Of a DNA stretch of 64,000 nucleotides, positions 1,049-60,226 are shown piece by piece (position 1 is the stretch's first letter; every line of letters starts with the position of its first letter). Both the position numbers and the translations under genes were made by a program. This DNA is from Phycisphaerae bacterium RAS1 (GTDB taxonomy: Bacteria; Planctomycetota; Phycisphaerae; UBA1845; Fen-1342), in contig SMLU01000002.1 in the NCBI GenBank assembly GCA_007859745.1, forward strand, positions 488,942 through 552,941. Direction: 5' to 3'. The notes beneath the pieces are model-generated. The model was not told where the DNA came from. It was given only the letters and a program-made list of their open reading frames with translations, and searched no databases.

Positions 1049-1374
1049 ACGGCGACAATCCGGCTTGCTTTCGCGCCAAGATGGTACATACTTCCAATAG
1101 ACTCGGACTCCGCGGCTTCGGCGCGGGCGCCGCAGGCCGGCTGGTTCGTGCTGCAGGTCGCGGAGTCCTAACAGCAACATCGTGGTGATCGCGCGTCGGC
1201 CCGTGGCGGTCGCGTAGGCTTGTGCGCCGAGTTTGTCGGCGCTGCCGCTTCAAACCGGCGCGGGCGGGTTGCGCGCGGCGCTCCGTCGGGGGTGGGCGAT
1301 TGGGGGGTGCGCGCTCCGTGTCGCCCGCCGCGGCGGAGAACATGTCTTTTTGGGCGCAGCGCGGAGGTCAACTC

Positions 1375-4300
1375 ATGCACTCACGTGTCACCCGCCGTCG
1401 CGCGGCGCGTGCTGACGGCGCCGCGGGGTTCTTGTGGACCGCTTTTTTGTTCCTAGTTGTGGCGGCGGCGCTGCTGTGGTACAGCGCGCCGGCGCATGCG
1501 ATCACCATCCTGTGGCAGGCCCCCAACACGGACATCACGCTCAACTTGCCCTTCGGGACGATCGAGTTCGAGGATCCGTTGAGCGGGGCCGAGACGCTCG
1601 GCGGGTATCGAGTGGTCGAATGGCGCGATGCGGACTACGGCCCCGGCCCGTCCTACGAGGACTGGACCGTGTCTCACCCGGGCGCGATCGACGGAAATGC
1701 GTCCGAAATCTGGCTCCGTTCGAACGGCCACTCGGCCTGGACCAGCACCAATCTGCCGACCGCGACCGTCGCAATCACGATGGACGGCGACGACAACGAC
1801 GGAATCGCCGAAATCCTGGTGGACAACACGCTCGTCGCGCGGCTCGACATGGGGAACGCCCTGCCGCCCGATACGGCGCTGATCATCGTCAAAAACCTGG
1901 CCGTGGCCGCCCACACGATTCAAGTGGACGACAAGGGCATCGGCCCCAGCAACTACGGCGACGAAGTGCACATCGGCGGCGCCGCCGCGCTGCAGCCCCC
2001 GCTGCCGAAATGGGAGCAGCCACCGCAGCCCGGCGATCCGGGCAATGTTTTCTACGGCTGGAACGAATACAGCGTCATCAACGGCTCGCACATTGTGGCG
2101 GATGACTGGGTATGTCAGAACCAGGATCCGATCATTGCGATTCGCTGGTGGGGCTCGTTCCTGGGTTGGACGCAGAGCACGCCGCCGGTGATGGCCCCGG
2201 CGCGATTCCGGCTGACCATCTGGACGGACGTGCCGGCCGGCTCGCAGACGGATTTCAGTCATCCCGGACAGGTTGTCTGGGAGACGGATTGTGCGAACTT
2301 CACGACGCAATTCGTCGGCTGGGACCTCGATCCGCGCAGCGGGATGTACGAAGCCTGCTTCCTCTTCGAGCAGCAGCTCACTCCCGACCAGTACTTCTAT
2401 CAAACCGGACCGGACCAGATTCTCTGGCTCGGCGTCGCGGCGCAATATGACCTCGGGATGCCGCCGAATCCGTTCGGCTGGAAGACCCGGCCGCGCGACG
2501 CGACTTCGCTGGCGCCGGACGACGCCGTGATCATCGTCTGGCCGCTCGATCCGCACATCGGAATGCTGTACGACCAGGGCTTCCCGATCTACTGGCCGAC
2601 GCCGGATGAGTCCTGGGACATGGCGTTTGAGCTGAGCTCACGATCCAGCGGACAGGGGATCAAGTGGGACCAGCCGCCGATGTTCAGCCCGCAGTCGCCT
2701 TATCCGAACTGCTTCTGGGGCTGGGACGAGCTGTCGCACTACGCGTGCTGCCAGATCATGGCGGACGACTATCTCTGCTCTGATGCGCGACCGATTACGG
2801 ACATCCACTGGTGGGGTTCCTACCGTGACTGGCAGGAACCGATCCCGCCGCCGTTCGCACCAGACATGTTCCGCATCGGTATCTGGACCGACGTGCCGGT
2901 CGGGCCGGGCAACCCGTTCAGTCATCCGGGGCAGATGATCCGGGAGTGGATCGTGCCGCGCGGCGCGCTGAACGAGCGCATCGTCGGCTGCGACTACTTC
3001 ATCACCATGCCGTTCCCGGATGCGTGTTTCCAGTACGACTTCATCATTCCGCCGGGCGAGTGGTGGCAGCAGCCGCCCATGCCGCATCCGACGGTGTACT
3101 GGGTCAGCATTGCAGCCTGGTACGTGCAGGGTCCGCCGTCGATGTGGCCGTGGGGCTGGAAGACGCGCGAGCACTTCTTCAATGACGACGCGGTGCGCAT
3201 CCTCGCGCCGCCCGCGCCGGTTCCCGGCATGTTCTACGAGTTCGGCGAGCCGCTCTTCAATCTCGGCGAATCCTGGGACATGGCCTTTCGGCTGACGACC
3301 GAGGCGACCGGCGATCCGTATCTGAAATGGTCGCAGCCGCCGGTCGGCATCACGCCGATCGACGCCCTGCGCGGCTGGAACGAGCCGTCGCGCTACAACG
3401 GCCCGCAGATCGCCGCGGACGACTGGGTGTGCAACACCGACCAGCCGGTGACCGACATTCACTGGTGGGGCTCGTTCCTCGGGTGGACGGACCGCGAGCC
3501 GCCGTCCGACGCGGCGACGCAATACCACATCGCCATCTGGACCGACGTGCCGAGCGGGCCGAACGAGCCGTTCAGCCATCCGGGCGTGGTGCTTTGGGAG
3601 ACGCTGTGCACGAACCCGACGATGACGTTCGTGGGTCACGACTTTGATCCGCGCAACCCGGGCACGCCGCCCGAAGCGTGCTTCAAGTTCGACTTCGTTC
3701 TGCCGCAAAGCGCCTGGTTCTATCAGGGACCGGGCCAGCATGTTTACTGGATCAGCATTGCGGCGGTGTATCCGGATGGGTCGCTGGTGACCTACCCGTT
3801 CGGCATGAAGACGCGCCCGCGGGTGGATTCGCAGTCGCCGGATGACGCAGTGCGCATCTTCAGTCCGACCGTGCCGGTGATCGGCGAGCCGTATGTCCTC
3901 GGCGAGCCGCTCTTCTGGCCGGAGCCGTTTGATTCGTGGGATCTGTGCTTCACGCTGACGACGCACGAGATTCCGCCGGAGGTGTATCCGAAGTGGACGC
4001 AGCTTCCGCACGAGACGCAGCAGGGCTTCGACGCCGCGTCCGATCTGTACTGGACCGGCGGCGGGCCGGTTGAGTTGAAGTGGATTCAGACTCCGAATCC
4101 GCAGCTTCCGGGTTTGCACGCGCACGACGCGTCGCTCACTCCGCCGACCACGCTGGCCGACCAGTGGCAATGCGAAGGCGGCGTGGTGACCGACCTGCAC
4201 TGGTGGGGCAACTACGAGCTCGACGACACGGGCGCAGAGTTGCGCGGGTCAGGCGTCCAGACGTTCCACCTGAGCATCCACGCCAACATCCCCGGCGCGC

Positions 4301-5946
4301 CGTGGTGCCTGCCGGGCGCCGAGCTGTGGTCGTTCAACGCGCCGTTTGCCGTCGTCGATGAGACCGCGACCGGCACGACGAACAACGAAGGCAGCATGAT
4401 TTACTTCTACAGCTACGTGCTGCCGACGCCGTTCGCGCAGACGGCTGGATCGATCTACTGGGTCGATATCACGGCCAATTCCAACAACACCGCCAACCCG
4501 GCGATGTGGCGCTGGCAGGAGCATTCGCGGGCGCCGATTCCGCGGCTTTGCCCGGCGGCCAAGCGGACGGGCACGGGCCCGTGGACATCGATCGGCTGGA
4601 CGACGATCCCGCCGACCTATACCGACCTGGCTTTTGCGGTCACGTCGACGCCGGTGCTGCATGAGGTGAACAAGGTTGTCGCAGACGACTTCATCTCCGA
4701 TGGGCGGCCGATTCGCGGGCTGCGCTACTGGGGCAGCTACTTCGACGACCGCTATGCACCGGGGCCGGTGATTGATCCGTTGCATGTCGTGGACGGCTGG
4801 CTGGTCAGCTTCCACGAAGGCCGGGTCGAGCCGGCGGGACTTCCGAATTGTCCGCCGGGCGTGCCGGCCGATCCGTCGCCGACCGTGCTGGGCGTCTACT
4901 TCGCGCCCGCTTCGGCGGTGGTGATCACGCCGACCAGCACGTTCGATTGTTTCAACCGGCAGGTGTATCGCTACGAGATCAACCTGTCCCAGTGCTGCCT
5001 GCTGTGCGCCGAGGTCGATCCGCGAAACGGCGCCATTCCCGCGACGTCCGACGCCTTCTTCGAAGTCAGCGGCTACCGCTACTGGCTCGACATCCAGGCG
5101 GTGACCGGCGTCGAGTGGCTGCCGCCGGATTGCGTGATGCGGCCGACCGGCCACCTGCCGTCCGACCAGACGGCGGACGGGCACTTCTGGGGCTGGCACA
5201 CCAGCCGGGCGACAACCATGCCGACCTGGCTCGATGAAGCCTGCACCGGCATGATCGTTGACTTCACGCCGTACCCACCTGCGTGCTGGGACTACGGCCA
5301 GTGGATCAAGCAGCCGTGGCTGTGTCCGACGCCGCCACCGCCGGTGAACATGGCGTTTGAGCTGCTGACAAATGTCGCGCCCGGGCCGCAGGCGTGTTGC
5401 CTGGCGGACGGGACATGCATCGACGTGATGCCGCTGACGTGCGTCCTCACGCACAACGGCACGCCGCGCGGACCGGGCACGACCTGTGCCACGGTTCCGC
5501 CGCTGGTGATGCAGCATCCGGCGGATGTCACGGCGTGCGAAGGCGACTCGGTGACGTTCACGGTGATTGCGTGCGGTGCGCCGACGTTGACCTACCAGTG
5601 GCGACTGGACGGTTCGGACATCAGCGGCGCGACCGCGAGCTCGTACACGATCAACCCGGTCGGCACGGGGCACGCGGGAAGCTATGACTGCGTCGTGACG
5701 AACGCGAGCGGCTCGGCCACGAGCAATGCCGCGGTGCTGACGGTCTGGCGCAAGTGCGACTCGAACTGCGACGGCAACGTGAACATCCTGGACATCAACC
5801 CGTTCATCCTGGCGATCAACAGCCAGGCGGCCTGGGAGGCGGCCTACGATTGCGACTACTTCTGCGCTAACGACATCAACGGCGACGGCGTGGTGAACAT
5901 CCTGGACATCAACCCGTTCGTCGCGTGCCTGACGCAGGGACAATAG
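1375..5946 (+). CDS. Large secreted repeat protein with Ig-like and C-terminal dockerin-like modules
   Basis: A protein of 1523 residues, start chosen at ATG 1375 because GGAGG lies 7 bp upstream and the product then begins with an Arg-rich n-region, a hydrophobic helix and an APAHA cleavage site. Five related segments of about 200 residues follow (near bases 2010, 2660, 3325, 4080 and 4675), each with an ADD(W/Y/F) element, a WWGS or YWGS element and usually a KWxQPP opening and an IWTDVP strand. Then come one six-Cys motif (QACCLADGTC), an Ig-like domain (about bases 5510-5745, with YQW and GSYDCVV) and a tail with two EF-hand loops (DSNCDGNVNILDIN and DINGDGVVNILDIN). It is probably exported and surface-associated; its ligand is unknown. 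Dockerin-type tails suggest calcium binding or attachment, but no cohesin is seen in the window. Confidence 0.85.
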   Translation: MHSRVTRRRAARADGAAGFLWTAFLFLVVAAALLWYSAPAHAITILWQAPNTDITLNLPFGTIEFEDPLSGAETLGGYRVVEWRDADYGPGPSYEDWTVSHPGAIDGNASEIWLRSNGHSAWTSTNLPTATVAITMDGDDNDGIAEILVDNTLVARLDMGNALPPDTALIIVKNLAVAAHTIQVDDKGIGPSNYGDEVHIGGAAALQPPLPKWEQPPQPGDPGNVFYGWNEYSVINGSHIVADDWVCQNQDPIIAIRWWGSFLGWTQSTPPVMAPARFRLTIWTDVPAGSQTDFSHPGQVVWETDCANFTTQFVGWDLDPRSGMYEACFLFEQQLTPDQYFYQTGPDQILWLGVAAQYDLGMPPNPFGWKTRPRDATSLAPDDAVIIVWPLDPHIGMLYDQGFPIYWPTPDESWDMAFELSSRSSGQGIKWDQPPMFSPQSPYPNCFWGWDELSHYACCQIMADDYLCSDARPITDIHWWGSYRDWQEPIPPPFAPDMFRIGIWTDVPVGPGNPFSHPGQMIREWIVPRGALNERIVGCDYFITMPFPDACFQYDFIIPPGEWWQQPPMPHPTVYWVSIAAWYVQGPPSMWPWGWKTREHFFNDDAVRILAPPAPVPGMFYEFGEPLFNLGESWDMAFRLTTEATGDPYLKWSQPPVGITPIDALRGWNEPSRYNGPQIAADDWVCNTDQPVTDIHWWGSFLGWTDREPPSDAATQYHIAIWTDVPSGPNEPFSHPGVVLWETLCTNPTMTFVGHDFDPRNPGTPPEACFKFDFVLPQSAWFYQGPGQHVYWISIAAVYPDGSLVTYPFGMKTRPRVDSQSPDDAVRIFSPTVPVIGEPYVLGEPLFWPEPFDSWDLCFTLTTHEIPPEVYPKWTQLPHETQQGFDAASDLYWTGGGPVELKWIQTPNPQLPGLHAHDASLTPPTTLADQWQCEGGVVTDLHWWGNYELDDTGAELRGSGVQTFHLSIHANIPGAPWCLPGAELWSFNAPFAVVDETATGTTNNEGSMIYFYSYVLPTPFAQTAGSIYWVDITANSNNTANPAMWRWQEHSRAPIPRLCPAAKRTGTGPWTSIGWTTIPPTYTDLAFAVTSTPVLHEVNKVVADDFISDGRPIRGLRYWGSYFDDRYAPGPVIDPLHVVDGWLVSFHEGRVEPAGLPNCPPGVPADPSPTVLGVYFAPASAVVITPTSTFDCFNRQVYRYEINLSQCCLLCAEVDPRNGAIPATSDAFFEVSGYRYWLDIQAVTGVEWLPPDCVMRPTGHLPSDQTADGHFWGWHTSRATTMPTWLDEACTGMIVDFTPYPPACWDYGQWIKQPWLCPTPPPPVNMAFELLTNVAPGPQACCLADGTCIDVMPLTCVLTHNGTPRGPGTTCATVPPLVMQHPADVTACEGDSVTFTVIACGAPTLTYQWRLDGSDISGATASSYTINPVGTGHAGSYDCVVTNASGSATSNAAVLTVWRKCDSNCDGNVNILDINPFILAINSQAAWEAAYDCDYFCANDINGDGVVNILDINPFVACLTQGQ

Positions 5947-26575: not shown

Positions 26576-26674
26576 CCGAACCCGCCGCGCCAAGCAGCGG
26601 GTTGACGATCGCCTTCGATCGGCGCCCCACACGCCGCGGGCGTCACCCCGCCGCTTGGCGCGGCGGGTTCGGAC
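26576..26674. repeat. Family C palindromic repeat, copy 2 (full)
   Basis: Left arm ccgaacccgccgcgccaagc, a central segment with gatcgccttcgatcggcgcc, and right arm ccgcttggcgcggcgggttc. The two arms are near-perfect inverted repeats of about 30 bp, with an internal second palindrome around gatcg. It lies just past the 3' end of uvrC. Confidence 0.9.
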
Positions 26675-44317: not shown

Positions 44318-44418
44318 TTCCGAACCCGCCGCGCCAAGCGGCGGGGTGACCATCGCAGGCGAGCGGCGGCGCATAGGCCGGGGACGTCAACCCGCCGCTT
44401 GGCGCGGCGGGTTCGGAC
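44318..44418. repeat. Family C palindromic repeat, copy 3 (full)
   Basis: Left arm tccgaacccgccgcgccaag, right arm cgccgcttggcgcggcgggt, spanning about 100 bp with a GC-rich centre. It lies 100 bp upstream of the TMTC-like start, in the 400-bp divergent region before the sugar dehydrogenase gene. Apart from this unit and the tandem repeat that follows, I see no gene in 44216-44614. Confidence 0.9.
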
Positions 44419-48404: not shown

Positions 48405-48531
48405 GACGTCGACCCGCCGCTTGGCGCGGCGGGTTCGGACGGCTGAGCCCGCGGCGGGTTCGGACAGATCGGCGGCCGGGCTGTCTTTCAGAACCCGCCG
48501 CGCCAAGCGGCGGGTTGACGATCGGCAGCGA
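48405..48531. repeat. Family C repeats, two halves in reversed order
   Basis: A right-type half (gtcgacccgccgcttggcgc, from 48409) comes first. An internal partial copy follows (cgcggcgggttcggacagat), then a left-type half (cagaacccgccgcgccaagc) at 48489. The order is inverted compared with the full units, so recombination between copies or two independent insertions is likely. The 48351-48806 gap holds no gene besides these. A TTGACC-17-TACGCT pair at 48549-48577 is a weak promoter candidate for the next gene. Confidence 0.85.
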
Positions 48532-48806
48532 TCGGACGAAGAAGTTCGTTGACCCGCGGAAATCGCATCGGTACGCTGGAGGGGTCCAGTGAACCGCGTG
48601 ATGGGGGACCGGACTCTCGGTGTGAATCGGCTGCACAAGAACCGCTCCCGAGGCGCCACCGCGCGGCGGGCAGACGCGAACCGTGCGCCGATATTCGCGC
48701 TGGTTGGGCAAGGTGCGGCCCGCGGCGGCGTTCAGCATCAAGCGGCTGCCCGCGCTGGGCGGTTTGATAGACTCGCAGGTCAACACTCATTTCAGGAGGA
48801 ACGGCA

Positions 48807-50993
48807 ATGCGCTTTACCAAGTGGATGGCGGGGATCGTCGGGCTGTGCTGTAGCGCGCTGGCGATCGCGGGGCAGATGGCGGGGGCGACGGCGGCAACTC
48901 GAACAGCGGCAACCTCCAGAATCAGCGACGCGACCGACGCGACCGGGATTGAGCCCTCCCAGCTCGGCGCGTTTCAGCCCGACCTCATCATCGTTCCCTT
49001 CGACTGGAGCGGCGTCCCGACCACCGGCGAAGGCGAGCCGGGGTTCGGCCCGCCGGACGGGCCGCGCGGTGCCTGCTGCCTGACCTCTCCCAGCGGACTT
49101 CGTTTGTGCGTGGTCGTGCCCGAGGCGTTCTGCGCGGCGCACAACGGCGAATACCAGGGCGACGGAACGACCTGCATGGACAATCCCTGCGACCTGCCGA
49201 CGCCGCAGGTCGGCGCCTGCTGCGTCGTGACCGCGGACGGCGTGCCGCACTGCTTCGTCACCACCGAGCGGCGCTGCATGCGCGCAGGTGGCACGTACCA
49301 GGGCGCCGGAACAAGCTGTGAAACGAACCCGTGCAACGCTCCGCAGCCGCTGCGCGGCGCGTGCTGCATCACGTCGGCCAGCGGCGCCGTGTTCTGCGTC
49401 GTGACGACGCAGGCCTTTTGCGAATCCCATAGCGGCCACTACCAGGGCGACGGCACCAACTGCCAGTCCCATCCCTGTCAGAACACGCCGGAGCTCGGCG
49501 CGTGCTGCGTGGTCGGCAACACTGGCGGCTTCTGCGTGGTCGTGACGCAGGCGCAGTGCGAGATGCACAACGGCCAGTACCAGGGCGACGGAAGCACCTG
49601 CCCCAACCCCGCCTGCGACCAGACGCCCCCAGAAACCGGCGCATGCTGCGTGGCGCGCCCCGGCGCCACGGCTATCTGCGTCGTGACGACCCAGGCGAAC
49701 TGCGACACACACAACGGCGTCTACCAGGGCGACGGGACCAACTGCCAGAATCACCCGTGCCCGCTGCCGGCCGTCGGTGCGTGCTGCATCACCCGGCCCG
49801 ATGAGCCGCCGCACTGCGGCGTCGCCACGGAAGCCGCGTGCGCGGCGGCGGGCGGCGTCTACGCCGGCGACGGCACCAACTGCATGAGCAATCCCTGCCC
49901 CACGCCGGATCGCGGCGCGTGCTGCGTCAATAATCCGAACGGGTTGTTGTGCTTCGTCGGCACGCCGGCGCAATGCGCCGCGGCCAACGGCACATACCAG
50001 GGGAACGGCACGAACTGCATGAGCAACCCGTGTCCGCAGCCGGCGCTGGGGGCCTGCTGCGTGCACACGTCCAGCGGCGGCATCACCTGCGTGATGCGCA
50101 CGGAGGCTCAGTGTGCGGCGCAGGGCGGCACGTTCCAGGGTAATGGCACGAACTGCACGTCGAATCCCTGCCCGCAGCCGGCGCTGGGCGCTTGCTGCGT
50201 CACATCGGCCGCCGGAATTCAGTGCCTGATGCGGACGGAAGCGCAGTGCGCGGCGCTGGGCGGCCACTTCCAGGGCAACGGGACGCTATGCTCGAACACG
50301 ATCTGCACGCCGCCGGCGACGGGCGCCTGCTGCATCCTTGACGGCGGTGCGATTCAATGCCTGATCCGCACGGAAGCCCAGTGCGCTGCGATCGGCGGCC
50401 ATTACCAGGGCAATGGCACGAATTGCGCGACCAATCCCTGCCCGCCGCCGGCGCTGGGCGCCTGCTGCGTCGCGAGCGCCGACGGCGTGCAGTGCCTGAT
50501 GCGCACCGCTGCCCAGTGCCAGGCAATGGGCGGGCAGTACCACGGCGACGGCACGAGCTGCACCAGCCAGCCGTGCCCGCAGCCGCCGCGCGGGGCCTGT
50601 TGCATCAGCAACCCGGGAGCGCCGCCTTTTTGCGTGCTCTTGACGCCGGCGCAGTGTGCGTCGGAGGGCGGGGCGTATCAGGGAGACAACACGGCGTGCA
50701 ACGACGCGACGTGCGTTCCGACCGGGCTGGGGGCTTGTTGCGTAGTCGGCGGCGGCCTGATTCAGTGCCTGATGCGGACCGAGGCCCAGTGCGCGGCGCT
50801 CGGCGGCGTCTTCCGCGGCGTCGGCACGAGCTGCGCGAGCAACCCCTGCAATAACACGGCGGTCGGCGCGTGCTGCGTGAATTCACCGAATGGCGGCGTG
50901 ATGTGCGTGATGACCTCGCAGCCGCAATGCGCGGCGATGGGCGGGGCGTTCCAAGGCGCCGGGACGAATTGCATGAACCAACCGTGCCGCTGA
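48807..50993 (+). CDS. Secreted Cys-rich protein with 14 tandem six-Cys repeats
   Basis: A protein of 728 residues from ATG 48807, with a strong GGAGG about 7 bp upstream. A signal peptide (ALAIAGQMAGATA) and a 60-residue spacer come first. From residue about 88 to the end there are 14 head-to-tail units of about 45 residues, each starting GACC and carrying Cys residues in the pattern CC-x(8-9)-C-x(7-8)-C-x(12)-C-x(4)-C. Conserved parts are a T-x-A-x-C helix-like segment, a GG-x-(Y/F)-x-G element and GTxCxxxPC. Even spacing implies three disulfides per unit and a stiff, rod-like extracellular fibre. The function is unknown. The same unit occurs once in the exoprotein at 1375. Confidence 0.88.
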   Translation: MRFTKWMAGIVGLCCSALAIAGQMAGATAATRTAATSRISDATDATGIEPSQLGAFQPDLIIVPFDWSGVPTTGEGEPGFGPPDGPRGACCLTSPSGLRLCVVVPEAFCAAHNGEYQGDGTTCMDNPCDLPTPQVGACCVVTADGVPHCFVTTERRCMRAGGTYQGAGTSCETNPCNAPQPLRGACCITSASGAVFCVVTTQAFCESHSGHYQGDGTNCQSHPCQNTPELGACCVVGNTGGFCVVVTQAQCEMHNGQYQGDGSTCPNPACDQTPPETGACCVARPGATAICVVTTQANCDTHNGVYQGDGTNCQNHPCPLPAVGACCITRPDEPPHCGVATEAACAAAGGVYAGDGTNCMSNPCPTPDRGACCVNNPNGLLCFVGTPAQCAAANGTYQGNGTNCMSNPCPQPALGACCVHTSSGGITCVMRTEAQCAAQGGTFQGNGTNCTSNPCPQPALGACCVTSAAGIQCLMRTEAQCAALGGHFQGNGTLCSNTICTPPATGACCILDGGAIQCLIRTEAQCAAIGGHYQGNGTNCATNPCPPPALGACCVASADGVQCLMRTAAQCQAMGGQYHGDGTSCTSQPCPQPPRGACCISNPGAPPFCVLLTPAQCASEGGAYQGDNTACNDATCVPTGLGACCVVGGGLIQCLMRTEAQCAALGGVFRGVGTSCASNPCNNTAVGACCVNSPNGGVMCVMTSQPQCAAMGGAFQGAGTNCMNQPCR

Positions 50994-51064: not shown

Positions 51065-51161
51065 CCGAACCCGCCGCGCCAAGCGGCGGGTTGAGTTGCG
51101 TTCGTGAACCGAGTTCCCGCGCGCCGACGTCACCCCGCCGCTTGGTGCGGCGGGTTCGGAA
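51065..51161. repeat. Family C palindromic repeat, copy 5 (full)
   Basis: Left arm ccgaacccgccgcgccaagc, right arm cgccgcttggtgcggcgggt. It lies between the Cys-rich gene and the transporter gene. Between 50994 and 51309 only these repeats and the transporter ribosome binding site are visible. Confidence 0.9.
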
Positions 51162-60126: not shown

Positions 60127-60226
60127 TCCGAACCCGTCGCGCCAAGCGGCGGGGTGACGTCCGCGCCGCGTGGGGCGCCGATCGCTAACGATCGTCACCC
60201 CGCCGCTTCGCGCGGCGGGTTCGGAC
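60127..60226. repeat. Family C palindromic repeat, copy 6 (full)
   Basis: Left arm ccgaacccgtcgcgccaagc, centre with gatcgctaacgatcg (a second palindrome), right arm ccgccgcttcgcgcggcggg. It lies between the pseudouridine synthase and channel genes. Confidence 0.9.

Follow-up and report, generated by a model that had tools for sequence, protein, structure and literature searches.

The array gene and its surroundings

The window, a 64,000-nucleotide stretch of a contig from Phycisphaerae bacterium RAS1, contains a gene whose 728-residue product is mostly a tandem array of six-cysteine modules (Table 1). The neighbours of this gene are a HAD hydrolase gene upstream and an MFS/POT transporter gene downstream; the array gene itself stands alone, with no sign of an operon partner at the locus. 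Inverted pairs of REP-like palindromes (CCCGCCGCNNCAAGCGGCGGG) lie on either side of it, and further inverted pairs occur in the window at 26581-26667, 44325-44411 and 60133-60219. The members of a pair are ~65-81 bp apart, a REPIN-like arrangement. The palindrome has ~810 matches in the genome and the reversed control pattern has none; the same genome has 20 matches to Y1 transposase.

Table 1. Coordinates, in window numbering, of the array gene, its parts and related features
Feature	Position	Strand	Basis
Single module with five Cys, C6 absent, in the exoprotein at 1222-5946	~5392..5499	+	Profile E 2e-8
REP-like palindromes, inverted pair, upstream of array gene; genome-wide repeat outside protein	48413..48514	.	
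Shine-Dalgarno AGGAGG, 7 nt 5' of ATG	48794..48799	+	Read in sequence
Gene for 728-aa protein of 14 six-Cys modules	48807..50993	+	Open frame and profile matches
Signal-peptide-like N-terminus, ~30 aa: basic start, then hydrophobic Ala-rich core	48807..48896	+	Translation; cleavage site inferred
Leader, ~57 aa, Ser/Thr/Asp-rich then Gly/Pro-rich, low-complexity, no family	48897..49067	+	Translation, Pfam scan
Array of 14 modules of 43-48 aa	49068..50990	+	Translation, 14-unit alignment
Units 9-11, used for the three-unit model (mean pLDDT 92.2)	50187..50576	+	
REP-like palindromes, inverted pair, downstream of array gene	51070..51154	.	

The signal-like start and the leader take up residues 1-87 of the protein, unit 1 begins at residue 88 (GACC), and from there the units run head to tail to the last residue. 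A first-pass annotation, made from the sequence alone, had described 14 tandem units with six Cys in a fixed pattern reaching the C-terminus, and this description holds: all 14 units are 43-48 residues long and have exactly six Cys, spaced CC-x8 or 9-C-x7-C-x13-C-x4-C. A six-frame profile search recovered the array as 14 matches in the window, with E-values of 1.8e-158 for the whole ORF and 1e-10 to 1e-14 for single units; the array is far beyond chance. Ten columns of the 14-unit alignment are invariant, all six Cys among them. The element GGxYxGxGTxC, which had been ascribed to every unit, is present in its strict form in 4 of the 14, but the relaxed form [GNS]Gx[YF]xGx[GN][TS]xC is present in all of them.

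The units are joined by linkers of 5-7 residues that are often Pro-rich (PQPAL, PPPAL, DLPTPQV), and the mature gene product (~698 residues) has 84 Cys, 60 Pro and no Lys. Core identity between pairs of array units ranges from 43 to 77%, the closest to each other being units 8-10 and 13, so that recent, perfect tandem copying does not explain the array. No dockerin motif or other anchor was found in the 728-residue protein, and the cell-surface role tentatively suggested in the first-pass annotation is thus not borne out.

The window encodes another carrier of the module, an exoprotein at 1222-5946 that combines a single module with five DUF7901 stretches, an Ig-like domain and an end resembling a dockerin. 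A single copy of the unit had indeed been reported in this protein, but at 1375, near the gene start; the copy lies instead at the position given in Table 1.

Anatomy of the unit

An alignment of 96 diverse units, anchored on the Cys, shows no variation at Gly1 or at any of the six Cys and almost none at Ala2. An aromatic residue (Y, F or W) is kept at one position in 96 of 96 units, as is one Gly; another Gly is kept in 94 of 96, and Thr or Ser predominates before C5. The stretch between C2 and C3 is the part of the unit most variable in length, and the common pattern of the family is CC-x4..12-C-x7-C-x13-C-x4-C.

All six Cys are kept in 725 of 796 unit contexts; together with a confidently predicted fold, this makes the three disulfides per unit proposed in the first-pass annotation very likely. 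Paired losses read by eye, few in number and, where the adjacent C1 and C2 are concerned, dependent on the alignment for their assignment, involve C2 and C6 in four rows (L021, L022, L104 with its near-copy L105, and L098), C1 and C4 in two (L152, L158) and C3 and C5 in one (L034). Because these losses form one consistent matching, they suggest the pairing C1-C4, C2-C6 and C3-C5, which is a prediction from sequence. Among counter-cases, the ambiguous L132 seems to lack C5 and C6, and some units lack a single Cys; where C6 alone is lost, the Cys has in many cases only been displaced. Two further sequences that resembled units (L163, L052) have 'CDENVC'-like spacing and were excluded, being taken for the beginning of a different domain.

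Fold prediction for one and for three units, proposed along with the first-pass annotation, gave confident AlphaFold2 models in both cases. Mean pLDDT was 90.7 for one unit (91 aligned units) and 92.2, with pTM 0.60, for window units 9-11 (30 aligned triplets); the models give no firm geometry between units and so do not bear out the extended rod or fibre proposed in the first-pass annotation. The modelled unit has the order strand, strand, short helix, strand.

A widespread module without a name

The six-Cys unit is not represented by any model in Pfam or NCBIfam. The best Pfam match, DUF7361, had an E-value of 0.13, which is below the cut-off, and scanning 91 units singly gave no consistent match. 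The first-pass annotation had likewise failed to recognize the family, and in that the named-domain searches agree with it. Its suggestion that the unit is a reusable module is borne out by ~58 copies in the organism's own genome (56 sites with a one-unit query, 58 with the 14-unit profile). These copies occupy about fifteen other proteins, most of them with a C-terminal dockerin pair; the carriers include a trypsin-like protease with ten units, a multicopper oxidase and a sorbosone-dehydrogenase-like protein.

The profile search of planctomycetes that had been recommended as a check found the module in 54 of 61 genomes of relatives. In wider samples, where copy counts per genome are to be read as 'at least', 100 of 298 genomes of the class have it, among them almost every one from the window's order, as do 24 of 392 from the phylum. 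With the single protein as query, the nearest named relative of the array comes from a 'Phycisphaerae bacterium' MAG and is 42% identical over the array. Proteins made only of modules, with 7 to 34 units, are present in several genera, and some of these end in a dockerin. In the 44 carrier proteins that were scanned, the partners of the module were dockerin, multicopper oxidase, subtilase, P-domain, C-type lectin, GH123, phosphatase, laminin-G, CBM96, SdrD_B and TSP3.

Searches of plasmid and phage collections for the module gave no match. In two IMG/VR contigs (L168:1279-3663 and L169:4166-6565), a phage baseplate wedge protein (phrog_219, E ~1e-155) carries two C-terminal six-Cys modules. 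A search of the open-access literature found no earlier report of the module, nor any that linked iRhom with planctomycetes.

Tandem Cys-rich beads such as EGF-like and TSP3 domains are familiar as extracellular spacers; the Cys spacing of these and similar domains is unlike that of the module, and none gave a significant Pfam match. Planctomycete proteins with type I or GC-type dockerins (PF00404, NF041540) commonly have the module on the same chain, whereas the 14-module protein has no dockerin.

Sequence similarity to the iRhom homology domain

A search of PDB sequences with the single 728-residue protein as query found nothing. With a profile of 91 units, the search of all PDB sequences at E-values up to 10 returned four distinct sequences, all of them human iRhom1 or iRhom2; the best stretch matched profile positions 3-37 with all six Cys, at E = 0.001-0.043. 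A profile of unit triplets returned the same four iRhom sequences only (E = 0.0007-0.001). A separate set of 90 units, drawn from a wider genome sample and having some members in common with the 91-unit set, again returned only iRhoms (E = 0.003-0.007). These PDB E-values are borderline and come with compositional bias. Thus the family, which was rightly said to be unrecognized in that it has no name, does resemble a described structure, a segment of the iRhom homology domain, and this had been missed.

Direct comparison of the module profile with iRhom by hhalign gave E-values of 8e-6 and 5.5e-6; a column-shuffled profile gave E = 0.17 over two columns. The iRhom segment has the spacing CC-x6-C-x7-C-x13-C-x4-C, which is inside the range of the bacterial family, and shares with the module a Thr after C3, a Gly and an aromatic residue after C4, and a Thr before C5. 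The invariant second Gly of the bacterial GxG is Glu in iRhom. When the iRhom segments were shuffled with their Cys fixed, none of 5000 shuffles reached the real score for either paralogue, the best shuffles being close to it; when the non-Cys columns of the bacterial profile were shuffled, no iRhom match was obtained at E-values up to 10. No Pfam model matches the two iRhom stretches.

Structure comparison with iRhom

Foldseek and VIA searches with the one-unit model gave nothing above noise because this model is too short. With the three-unit model, Foldseek ranked iRhom2 first and iRhom1 second among 350,542 chains, at E-values of 1.4 and 2.4. VIA-align returned four iRhom chains and no others at Z > 2, with Z of 4.0-4.7, below the tool's safe level of 8; the superpositions cover 40-42 residues at 1.7-1.9 Å with 24-30% identity. 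The match lies at iRhom2 569-610 in 8SNL, or 598-637 in 9O58, whose numbering is 29 higher, and its register is that of the sequence match. In published work, Foldseek and Dali found no homologue of the iRhom homology domain, which was called unique or unprecedented (PMC10148629, PMC11248996, PMC8233286).

The likeness is to a part of the animal domain. The whole iRhom homology domain of RHBDF1 and RHBDF2 has ~240 residues, 16 Cys in eight disulfides and an iCERES loop, and is flanked by two membrane helices in a rhomboid-like protein; the bacterial unit has ~40 residues and six Cys. Within this domain, iRhom2 571-606 (8SNL numbering) has the module's order of Cys, along with the spacing and shared residues described above. 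Unlike iRhom, the bacterial module is soluble, predicted to be exported, tandemly repeated and not attached to a membrane core: the array protein has no Pfam match to rhomboid and lacks the seven-helix rhomboid-like core of iRhom. The mutated iRhom2 contacts with ADAM17 that the cryo-EM authors list for extracellular interfaces (residues 409, 419, 475 and 529-550) fall outside 571-606, so that the segment seems to act as scaffold there.

The first half of the iRhom domain (8SNL C470, C471, C479, C487, C520 and C527) has a weak half match to the module, whose score was reached by 75 of 5000 Cys-fixed shuffles of the iRhom2 stretch and 5 of 5000 of the shorter iRhom1 stretch. We do not claim a second full copy of the module at 470-527, because a published model pairs C527 with C548 (PMC10148629). 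Residues D475 and S477 of iRhom2, discussed for contact with the ADAM17 prodomain (PMC11248996), would fall in the C2-C3 loop of this half match.

Discussion

Our proposed explanation, held with moderate confidence as a whole, is that the gene encodes an exported string of 14 three-disulfide modules used for spacing or display and probably homologous to part of iRhom. The product would leave the cell, given its signal-like start, as a chain of autonomous modules of one unnamed family. Each module may begin with a hairpin of two strands, followed by a short helix and a last strand, and would be stapled most likely by C1-C4, C2-C6 and C3-C5; the core would be fixed and the hairpin loop between C2 and C3 free to vary in length and sequence. 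Such a module might serve as a stable, protease-resistant extracellular unit of secreted proteins, present either in low number (one to a few) next to enzymatic or binding domains or as 7 to 34 copies in proteins made of nothing else, and its variable loop could be adapted to binding. The spacer reading is favoured because the modules adjoin unrelated catalytic and binding domains, vary in copy number and often precede a dockerin.

As to ancestry, the 36-residue segment of the iRhom homology domain in iRhom1 and iRhom2 is probably a remote homologue of the bacterial unit, because independent routes agree on one segment, although no single number is decisive. Convergence of six-Cys strand/helix scaffolds, with the module as an independent planctomycete invention, is the less probable account. 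Small Cys-rich folds often converge, planctomycetes and animals are separated by a large phyletic gap, and the PDB E-values, Foldseek and VIA scores are each borderline when taken alone. Against convergence, the signal is carried by residues other than Cys, since the Cys-fixed shuffles fall short and the column-shuffled profile loses the match; the coinciding Thr, Gly, aromatic and Thr positions point the same way, as does the fact that two methods pick out iRhoms alone from all PDB chains, and in one register. The choice between ancestry and convergence rests on short sequences, and we give only slightly better than even chances to the broader proposal that the iRhom domain is built around a six-Cys module common to planctomycete secreted proteins, by common ancestry or by gain from bacteria.

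As to function, the modules may instead bind carbohydrate, mineral or proteins, which would make the 14-unit protein a multivalent adhesin or matrix protein; we regard this tentatively, though as nearly as likely as the spacer. Supporting this possibility, the aromatic residue is kept without exception, the modules adjoin lectin, CBM96, laminin-G and glycosidase domains, weak binding is well served by a multivalent array, and the C2-C3 loop is hypervariable in length. On the other hand, the aromatic residue is part of the conserved GG-x-[YFW]-x-G core and could be no more than a buried side chain, and the modules also adjoin oxidases, proteases and a phage baseplate protein, which share no common ligand. 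A scaffoldin-like role, in which the array would be the missing receptor for the dockerins of the same genome, is conceivable because Pfam models give 42 Dockerin_1 matches and no cohesin match there (none by PF00963 in the genome, none in the array protein), the 14-module protein itself lacks a dockerin, and planctomycetes have been proposed to form cohesin/dockerin complexes (PMC6461901), but it is very improbable because module and dockerin are usually on one chain, as in most module proteins of this genome, while other module-only proteins end in a dockerin, an ill fit for a receptor, and divergent cohesins may escape the Pfam model.

If the iRhom segment is indeed homologous to the bacterial unit, the paired losses in bacteria predict the iRhom2 disulfides C571-C587, C572-C606 and C579-C601. 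The link would thus offer three testable disulfide pairs, as well as a soluble bacterial stand-in for studying the segment. The iRhom homology domain, whose structure was described as without precedent (PMC11248996, PMC10148629), would gain a possible source, and the control of ADAM17 in animals would rest in part on a module of the type that bacteria secrete. For the planctomycetes, the module is present in most sampled genomes of an order, yet is unnamed in curated databases; many secreted proteins of this group are therefore only partly annotated.
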